Assembly (NCBI GenBank): GCA_021806095.1
Contig: JAJZYD010000005.1
Location: forward strand, 1-43,820
Direction: 5' to 3'
DNA length: 43,820 nucleotides
Source of the DNA: Microcaldota archaeon
GTDB taxonomy: Archaea > Micrarchaeota > Micrarchaeia > Micrarchaeales > Micrarchaeaceae
Numbering within the stretch: the first letter of the stretch is position 1; each line of letters opens with the position of its first letter. The notes beneath the pieces are model-generated. The model was not told where the DNA came from. It worked only from the letters and a program-made list of their open reading frames with translations, and ran no database searches. The position numbers were made by a program, and so were the translations under genes. Of this stretch, positions 17,956 to 20,360 are shown one piece after another.

Positions 17956-18046
17956 TGGGCCTGTGGAGAGTCGAACTCCAGTCTCAAGCGTGTAAGGCTT
18001 ACGTGCTTTTATAAGCTTAGCGTCTTAGCCGTTGGACGACAGGCCC
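17956..18046 (-). tRNA. tRNA-Val (anticodon UAC) with a 19-nt noncanonical intron
   Basis: The minus strand gives a 91-nt gene whose mature form would be 72 nt. The acceptor is GGGCCTG/CAGGCCC, the D arm GTC(C)...(A)GAC, G26 follows, the anticodon stem is TAAGC/GCTTG enclosing CTTACAC (anticodon TAC at 17992-17994), and the T arm is TGGAG-TTCGACT-CTCCA with discriminator A. The loop ending ACAC and the GGGC acceptor are typical of archaeal tRNA-Val. Nineteen extra bases lie between D arm and anticodon stem and must be removed for the cloverleaf to form. CCA is not encoded. A long-variable-arm (Leu/Ser) reading does not fold. Confidence 0.9.
18002..18020 (-). other. tRNA intron at position 26/27 with relaxed bulge-helix-bulge
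   Basis: The intron reads CTAAGCTTATAAAAGCACG (19 nt). The trinucleotide ACG stands at both borders (18021-18023 and 18002-18004), so the exact cut can slide without changing the product. Folding the precursor puts these two ACG copies in opposite 3-nt bulges. Between them is a 4-position helix CTAA/TAAG with one A-A mismatch; inside is GCTT/AAGC with loop ATAA; outside is TAAG/CTTA with one skipped C. That is a relaxed bulge-helix-bulge, the substrate of the archaeal tRNA splicing endonuclease. The fold was built by hand. Confidence 0.75.
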
Positions 18047-18575: not shown

Positions 18576-20360
18576 TTATTTTTTTCTTTTAAAAAGTGAC
18601 ATAGCTCTATTAAGCTGCCCAATTTTATCTTCACCGGGTTTTATACTATTTTTTATTAAATCAGGTTGTGCTGATCTTAATTCATTATATAATTTAAACA
18701 TAAGTTCTCTATATACATCATCACCTTGTGCTGATGTTCTAAGGCGTATATACCAATCTGCTTCGCGCAGATTAAATATATCAATCCATTTTATAATATG
18801 TGCAAATGTTACTGCGCGATTAGCATAGCCTTCAAGTTTTTTATTCATCTTCAATTCAGTATAAACATTTTCTATGCTTGTTATTTTATCTTTAAATTCT
18901 CCATCGAATCCTATATCATAAATGAGTTTTGGTATTATATAGCCATTCTCTACTGTGAAAGATTTAGGTATATGGAGCACAAATCTATTTCTCTGCAAAT
19001 CTCTATATACACTAATTGGAGCAGACAGGGCAACTGTATAGTTAGTACTTTCAAATGCTCTTGGAAGTTTCTTCCATCTATTATCTCTATCTTTATTTAT
19101 AGTATTAATAATTTTATTTACAAACTCAGTATTTTCTTGAAGTATTCTTAAGATTTTTTCTCGATCCATATAACTATCTTGAACCATCAAATTTGTTGCA
19201 ATATTTAATTTTGCTGACTCATCATTATCAGCTCGTAATAATCTAACATTTTTAGTATTAACATTTACTTTATCAGAAGAAGCAAAAACATCATATTCAT
19301 TACCTTTTCCTTTTGCCAACTGTTCTAATTCTTTTTCAAGTTGATGCAATTTTTGTTGATTATTTTTTAAATAATTAATTTGATCTTGAGAGTGTTTATT
19401 TTTTACTTTGCTTATCAATGATGGTGCACATGTATATAAAACGTTATATACACTTTCTGCAATTTTTGCTGCCTCTGGATCTTCGCTTGCATACATTTTA
19501 ATTAGCGTATTTGTAAAGCTCCTAAAATCTGCACTCCATGCAAGATTTGTTATTGTAGACATCGGAAGAATAGCTCTGCATATGTCAAAAGCTTTTGCTT
19601 TTGTTGCCATATTATATGCCTTTTCTGCTATTTTTTTATCTTCTTCGCTGAGCCTCTCATATTTTATCTTATTTTTACTATCATTTTGATCTGGAAATTC
19701 TTGCTCACTTAGGGGCATTTTATTCTTTAACTCAACTATTGTTTTTTCTAAAACTTTGGAAAAAGTTGCAAATAATTCATCCATTGCTTGATTATATGTA
19801 TTTGCCAAATTTGAGGATTCTATAGGTTCATATGTTCTATACAAATAATATTTTTTACTGTTTGAGTATTTTTCATCTGCATATCCTATAATCTCCCCTT
19901 TTTCATTCAATTGCAAAGGATTTGAAAAATTTACAAACCGTGTTGATTTTTCTATATAACCACATAATCTACAATCTTCTATTATTTTTGCACTAACTTG
20001 ATCAATACCTTCTATTCCTACAATTGCAGATACCATATCCAGTACAGAATCATCCCCATAATCGCTAATAATTCTTTTATTTATTTCACTAATTTTCTTA
20101 TTATTCTTAGATACCTTTTCCAGTCCTTTCAATTTCTCTATATCTTCATCTCTTAAGATTTCCTTTAGAAATAGTTTTTGTATACTAATCTCTTTAGATC
20201 TAGAAAATCTAGCAGCAATCAATGCTTTTTCTTCTTCGGTTAATGTATTTTCAAATGTAAAAATATTATATGATGGATTTTGACTATCAGTAAAAAATAG
20301 CTTTAACTTTTCTAATTCGTCTTTTGATAATGCAACTTTATAATTTAATATACCAGGCAT
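18576..20360 (-). CDS. Duplicated ThyX-like (flavin-dependent thymidylate synthase-related) protein
   Basis: A 594-residue protein resembling the long, internally duplicated ThyX relatives found in some archaea and bacteria. In the first half DCRLCGYIEKSTRF lines up with the ThyX motif RHRxxSxNExSxRY, keeping R, E, S and R. The second half has ALPMSTITNLAWSADFRSF and, further on, YRDLQRNRFVLHIPKSF as degenerate counterparts. The classic RHR triad is not complete in either copy, so thymidylate synthesis cannot be assumed; a structural or altered flavin/nucleotide role is possible. A charged coiled-coil-like insert (about residues 328-355) separates the halves. The ATG start MPGILNYKVAL is preceded by a TATA-rich gap. 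Confidence 0.65.
   Translation of the reverse strand: MPGILNYKVALSKDELEKLKLFFTDSQNPSYNIFTFENTLTEEEKALIAARFSRSKEISIQKLFLKEILRDEDIEKLKGLEKVSKNNKKISEINKRIISDYGDDSVLDMVSAIVGIEGIDQVSAKIIEDCRLCGYIEKSTRFVNFSNPLQLNEKGEIIGYADEKYSNSKKYYLYRTYEPIESSNLANTYNQAMDELFATFSKVLEKTIVELKNKMPLSEQEFPDQNDSKNKIKYERLSEEDKKIAEKAYNMATKAKAFDICRAILPMSTITNLAWSADFRSFTNTLIKMYASEDPEAAKIAESVYNVLYTCAPSLISKVKNKHSQDQINYLKNNQQKLHQLEKELEQLAKGKGNEYDVFASSDKVNVNTKNVRLLRADNDESAKLNIATNLMVQDSYMDREKILRILQENTEFVNKIINTINKDRDNRWKKLPRAFESTNYTVALSAPISVYRDLQRNRFVLHIPKSFTVENGYIIPKLIYDIGFDGEFKDKITSIENVYTELKMNKKLEGYANRAVTFAHIIKWIDIFNLREADWYIRLRTSAQGDDVYRELMFKLYNELRSAQPDLIKNSIKPGEDKIGQLNRAMSLFKRKK

Follow-up and report, generated by a model that had tools for sequence, protein, structure and literature searches.

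The only tRNA-Val(UAC) gene that we detected in this Micrarchaeaceae genome (G000) very probably carries a 19-nt protein-spliced intron at position 29/30. The intron is of the bulge-helix-bulge (BHB) type, in the relaxed HBh' form. The 91-nt gene runs from 18046 to 17956 on the minus strand of the window, the 43,820-nucleotide stretch of DNA that we analyzed; the minus-strand sequence is GGGCCTGTCGTCCAACGGCTAAGACGCTAAGCTTATAAAAGCACGTAAGCCTTACACGCTTGAGACTGGAGTTCGACTCTCCACAGGCCCA. A sequence-only reading had proposed a noncanonical BHB-type intron in this gene, and the presence of such an intron is well supported. However, it had put the intron at 26/27, between the D arm and the anticodon stem, with a differently drawn BHB. 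The position and the structure are corrected here to a site inside the anticodon stem, as follows.

18018 to 18046, minus strand: 5' exon, mature positions 1 to 29 (acceptor strand, D arm, G26, and C27-U28-A29 of the anticodon stem), from alignment with 13 uninterrupted same-genus genes and the BHB cut rule.
18020 to 18023, minus strand: 5' strand (ACGC) of the BHB central helix, tRNA positions 24 to 27, pairing with 18001 to 18004; U25-A of the relatives is C25-G here.
18017 to 18019, minus strand: 5' bulge U28 A29↓A, where the cut is predicted to follow the second nucleotide (BHB fit).
17999 to 18017, minus strand: 19-nt intron AGCUUAUAAAAGCACGUAA at 29/30, from a BHB of canonical polarity and from the homologous introns that 17 genomes have at this site.
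18005 to 18016, minus strand: inner hairpin GCUU-AUAA-AAGC (helix h'), 4 bp; pairing is kept in most relatives with a different sequence.
18001 to 18004, minus strand: 3' strand (ACGU) of the BHB central helix, within the intron (BHB fit).
17998 to 18000, minus strand: 3' bulge AA↓G30, where the cut is likewise predicted to follow the second nucleotide (BHB fit).
17956 to 17998, minus strand: 3' exon (G30-C31, anticodon loop CUUACAC, remainder of the anticodon stem, T arm, acceptor strand, A73), from ARAGORN and the same-genus alignment.
17992 to 17994, minus strand: anticodon UAC, positions 34 to 36, from the sequence and ARAGORN.

Taking out 19 nt leaves a 72-nt tRNA-Val(UAC) with G26, as the sequence-only reading had stated, and ARAGORN called this spliced form tRNA-Val(tac). 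ARAGORN in its default no-intron mode made no call on the unspliced gene. Rfam at default settings did not report the gene either; at a lax threshold, the unspliced gene scored 25.8 bits (cutoff, 29 bits) with a shifted, incorrect 5' end. The GUA-reading tRNA of G000 is one that escapes default tRNA scans. We also considered a 91-nt tRNA with a long variable arm, of the Ser or Leu type, and ruled it out, because the T arm, the acceptor, A73, and the UAC loop are those of a valine tRNA.

Two distinct 19-nt removals both yield a cloverleaf tRNA. If CTAAGCTTATAAAAGCACG is removed at 26/27, the anticodon stem is UAAGC/GCUUG and the predicted mature tRNA contains GACGUAAGCCUUACAC. If AGCTTATAAAAGCACGTAA is removed after A29, the stem is CUAGC/GCUUG and the predicted mature tRNA contains GACGCUAGCCUUACAC; a cut at 28/29 gives this same product. 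Considering this one genome alone, the 26/27 product is the better paired, with a complete anticodon stem, and direct ACG repeats stand at both intron borders. The 29/30 product has a U28.U42 mismatch, which is also present in all congeners. Minimum-energy folding of the spliced tRNA gave no cloverleaf for either product, and folding energy is therefore no arbiter of the splice site. Comparison within the genus spoke against 26/27. In each of the 13 other genomes from this genus, the Val(UAC) gene is uninterrupted, is 71 to 72 nt long, and has CTAGCCTTACACGCTTG at the corresponding place; the stem strand CUAGC in all 13 is at odds with the 26/27 stem. The 29/30 product has an anticodon stem-loop identical to that of all 13 genes and is up to 70/72 identical overall. 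Of 25 uninterrupted genes, 23 resemble it more closely than they do the 26/27 product. Mature bases 27 to 29 would thus read CUA, as in 13/13 congeners, instead of the UAA predicted earlier. The naive reading of the splice site is three bases off and gives a wrong mature sequence.

The BHB fit pointed the same way. The archaeal central helix forms between the 5' exon and the 3' part of the intron, which places each 3-nt bulge on the 3' side of its own helix strand. In the canonical case, the first anticodon bases pair with the intron (PMC4090602). The same polarity is found in the 37/38 and T-loop introns of G000 itself, for example those of Phe(GAA) and Ala(GGC). At 29/30, the central helix ACGC/ACGU has three of four pairs (A-U, C-G, and G-C, plus one C.A), and the bulges UA↓A and AA↓G, 3 nt each, lie on opposite strands. 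The inner hairpin has a 4-bp helix, GCUU/AAGC, with AUAA closing it. Removal at this site restores the cloverleaf and a normal anticodon loop. The strict hBHBh' form has an outer helix h beside the 3' bulge, and here G23-C31 is its sole pair. Because the outer helix is a single pair and the central helix has one C.A, we class the motif as relaxed HBh'. Among the positions tried, 29/30 alone gave a BHB of canonical polarity with at least three central and four inner pairs. When the intron was shuffled, three central plus four inner pairs arose at 29/30 with a frequency of 5e-5; the frequency of such a fit at any position in a 40-nt range was 0.8%. Canonical BHBs at 26/27 and at the other shifts allowed by the ACG repeat were rejected, with 0/4 central-helix pairs at 26/27 and fewer than three elsewhere. 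The hand-built BHB of the sequence-only reading was inverted in polarity: its two bulges both lay on the 5' side of the central helix. The ACG repeat that it had assigned to the two bulges makes up the central helix on both sides, as ACGT is self-complementary.

We then considered the other Micrarchaeaceae, of which 85 genomes were searched with a covariance model of this tRNA and by DNA search. The same intron site is occupied in 17 further genomes from 10 genera (G016, G020, G022, G095, G096, G024, G027, G089, G028, G061, G032, G092, G035, G077, G082, G083, and G086), with introns of 15 to 30 nt. A 29/30 splice gives a completely paired stem, CCAGC/GCUGG, in 17/17 of these genes; a 26/27 splice breaks the stem in 17/17. 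Their central helix is ATGC/GCAT in 15 (4/4 paired) and ATGC/GCAC in 2 (3/4). The C25-G pair of the window is compensatory, since the relatives have U25-A and both sides have changed. Inner helices vary in sequence (GCTT/AAGC, GCGG/CCGC, GTTC/GAAC, and GCAATA/TATTGC), and pairing is retained in most relatives; in G082 and G083, the inner helix beside the bulge is absent. Scanning named genomes for the exact pattern returned 12 contigs, labeled Candidatus Micrarchaeota or Micrarchaeaceae, with 2 labeled Marsarchaeota. The splice site is settled by comparison with relatives together with BHB polarity, and an intron at 26/27 with an inverted BHB is very unlikely. We retain 29/30 as the position.

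The gene is likely to be needed. GUA accounts for 204 of the 513 valine codons in the 24 open reading frames of the window, which therefore calls for a Val(UAC) tRNA. The other valine tRNA genes of G000, Val(CAC) and Val(GAC), are of normal length. Archaeal tRNAs with CAC or GAC anticodons are not known to read A-ending codons. An intact second Val(UAC) gene had been named earlier as the finding that would speak against the intron, and none was detected in the G000 assembly (782 kb, 51 contigs, 92.5% complete). The gene could still be silent or decaying, in which case another tRNA or a copy outside the assembly would read GUA; an intact extra copy could be missing because the assembly is in 51 contigs and 92% complete. 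However, besides the lack of a further Val(UAC) gene in that assembly, the exons are intact and close to those of congeners, and the BHB has been maintained with a compensatory change. A silent gene is very unlikely, and the locus is most probably a functional, intron-bearing gene.

At least six other tRNA genes of G000 have noncanonical introns, one of them 12 nt long. The 19-nt intron had been described as near the lower size limit, but there are shorter ones: 12 and 15 nt in other tRNAs of G000, and 15 to 16 nt at 29/30 in relatives. The 12-nt intron, AAGATCGAATAA, is in the T loop of tRNA-Leu(CAA) (L027, G000:C38:7152-7248), with a 4/4 central helix and no inner helix. Ala(GGC), Arg(UCG), and Ser(GGA) (L032, L029, and L035, on G000:C17, C40, and C11, respectively) each have a T-loop intron with a well-formed BHB, located around 59/60 and 35 to 44 nt long, and Ser(GGA) seems to have a second intron in the anticodon loop. 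D-loop introns are present in Ser(GCU) (27 nt) and Leu(UAA) (21 nt) (L033 and L034, on G000:C35 and C13).

The 29/30 intron is scattered across the family. On a tree of the DNA polymerase D large subunit plus EndA from 50 genomes, its distribution needs at least seven changes; on a careful tree of 28 genomes, it needs at least four, and G000 is the first branch of its genus, with support of only 87/81. EndA alone gave a tree that was not resolved. We favor one old intron with repeated loss over several gains because the site and the boundaries are identical, and the scattered distribution is probably that of an old family intron lost repeatedly. In G086, a duplicated 3' half lies 0.9 kb downstream of the intron-bearing gene. 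It starts with CATAAGCC, the intron end, followed by a GCTTG-type exon. The exons of the intron-bearing G086 gene are unlike those of its congeners, and the duplicated half is of the congeners' type. From this arrangement, the intron seems to have been associated at one time with exons of that type as well. We raise a speculative and rather doubtful idea: within Micrarchaeaceae, the 29/30 intron of Val(UAC) may be an allele subject to repeated loss, replacement, or movement, partly via elements inserting at the 3' half of this tRNA gene. The 18 genomes with the intron, the many without it, and the remodeled inner hairpins offer a natural series for tRNA intron gain and loss under an ε2 endonuclease.

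Duplicated 3' parts of tRNA-Val also occur elsewhere. In G046, 5.9 kb separates a full tRNA-Val from a second copy of its 3' part (L243, G046:C29:34481-40447). This stretch encodes a pyridine nucleotide-disulphide oxidoreductase together with an ArsR-type regulator, and may be a resistance island that was inserted there. G008, G019, and G039 also have such 3' fragments close to tRNA-Val. The DNA between the tRNA-Val and the duplicated half in G086 (L246, G086:C22:5491-6495) includes a stretch resembling Fic/DOC (HPFVDGNKRT) that seems to be interrupted; the Pfam match is indicative only, as the query sequence was typed by eye. Inspection of the open reading frame lists by eye recognized no integrase genes beside the duplicated halves. 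Near the tRNA gene in the window, 18576 to 20360 (minus strand) encodes a 594-amino-acid protein that contains two Thy1 (ThyX) stretches and is about double the normal length of ThyX, and a search of named genomes with this query found no relatives.

The sequence-only reading had expected an endonuclease of broad specificity, and the EndA predicted from the genome (383 aa, G000:C34) is of the ε2 type, a type of broad specificity. Its best PDB match is the ARMAN-2 ε2 enzyme 4FZ2, at 526 bits over the full length, and the next structure scores 82 bits. Residues 9 to 383 align with 4FZ2 residues 11 to 387, and Y160, K161, K228, Y236, H251, R275, K282, and W384 are all identical in this alignment; PMC12397907 names these residues as acting in catalysis, in recognition of the bulges, or in the ARMAN-specific loop. 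The ε2 enzymes consist of a single alphaN-alpha-betaC chain of about 390 aa, with the loop residues Y160/K161 and the catalytic residues Y236/H251/K282, and G000 EndA fits this pattern. G000 also encodes an RtcB ligase (550 bits). We suggest that pre-tRNA positions 24 to 27 pair with the 3' part of the intron and that the intron folds its own small hairpin, which would leave two 3-nt bulges on opposite strands. The ε2 endonuclease would most likely cleave UA↓A and AA↓G, and RtcB may then ligate A29 to G30 to give the 72-nt tRNA-Val(UAC). In this scenario, cleavage, ligation, and charging of this tRNA are inferred.

The closest known enzyme is the ε2 endonuclease of ARMAN-2 (Candidatus Micrarchaeum acidiphilum; PDB 4FZ2/9W2K), which is of the same three-unit type as G000 EndA. 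The ARMAN-2 enzyme cleaves both BHB and BHL introns (PMC12397907, PMC6379350), and relaxed-BHB introns are removed efficiently by heterotetrameric (alpha-beta)2 and ε2 enzymes (PMC6379350). In contrast to the ARMAN-2 enzyme with its broad substrate set, G000 EndA is from another species and is known here from its sequence. Known noncanonical archaeal tRNA introns (BHB, hBH, and HBh') are likewise protein-spliced and short, with two 3-nt bulges, and 29/30 is an entry among their published sites (PMC4090602). Compared with the known 29/30 introns, the one described here is in a Micrarchaeaceae tRNA-Val(UAC), with one central-helix mismatch and almost no outer helix.
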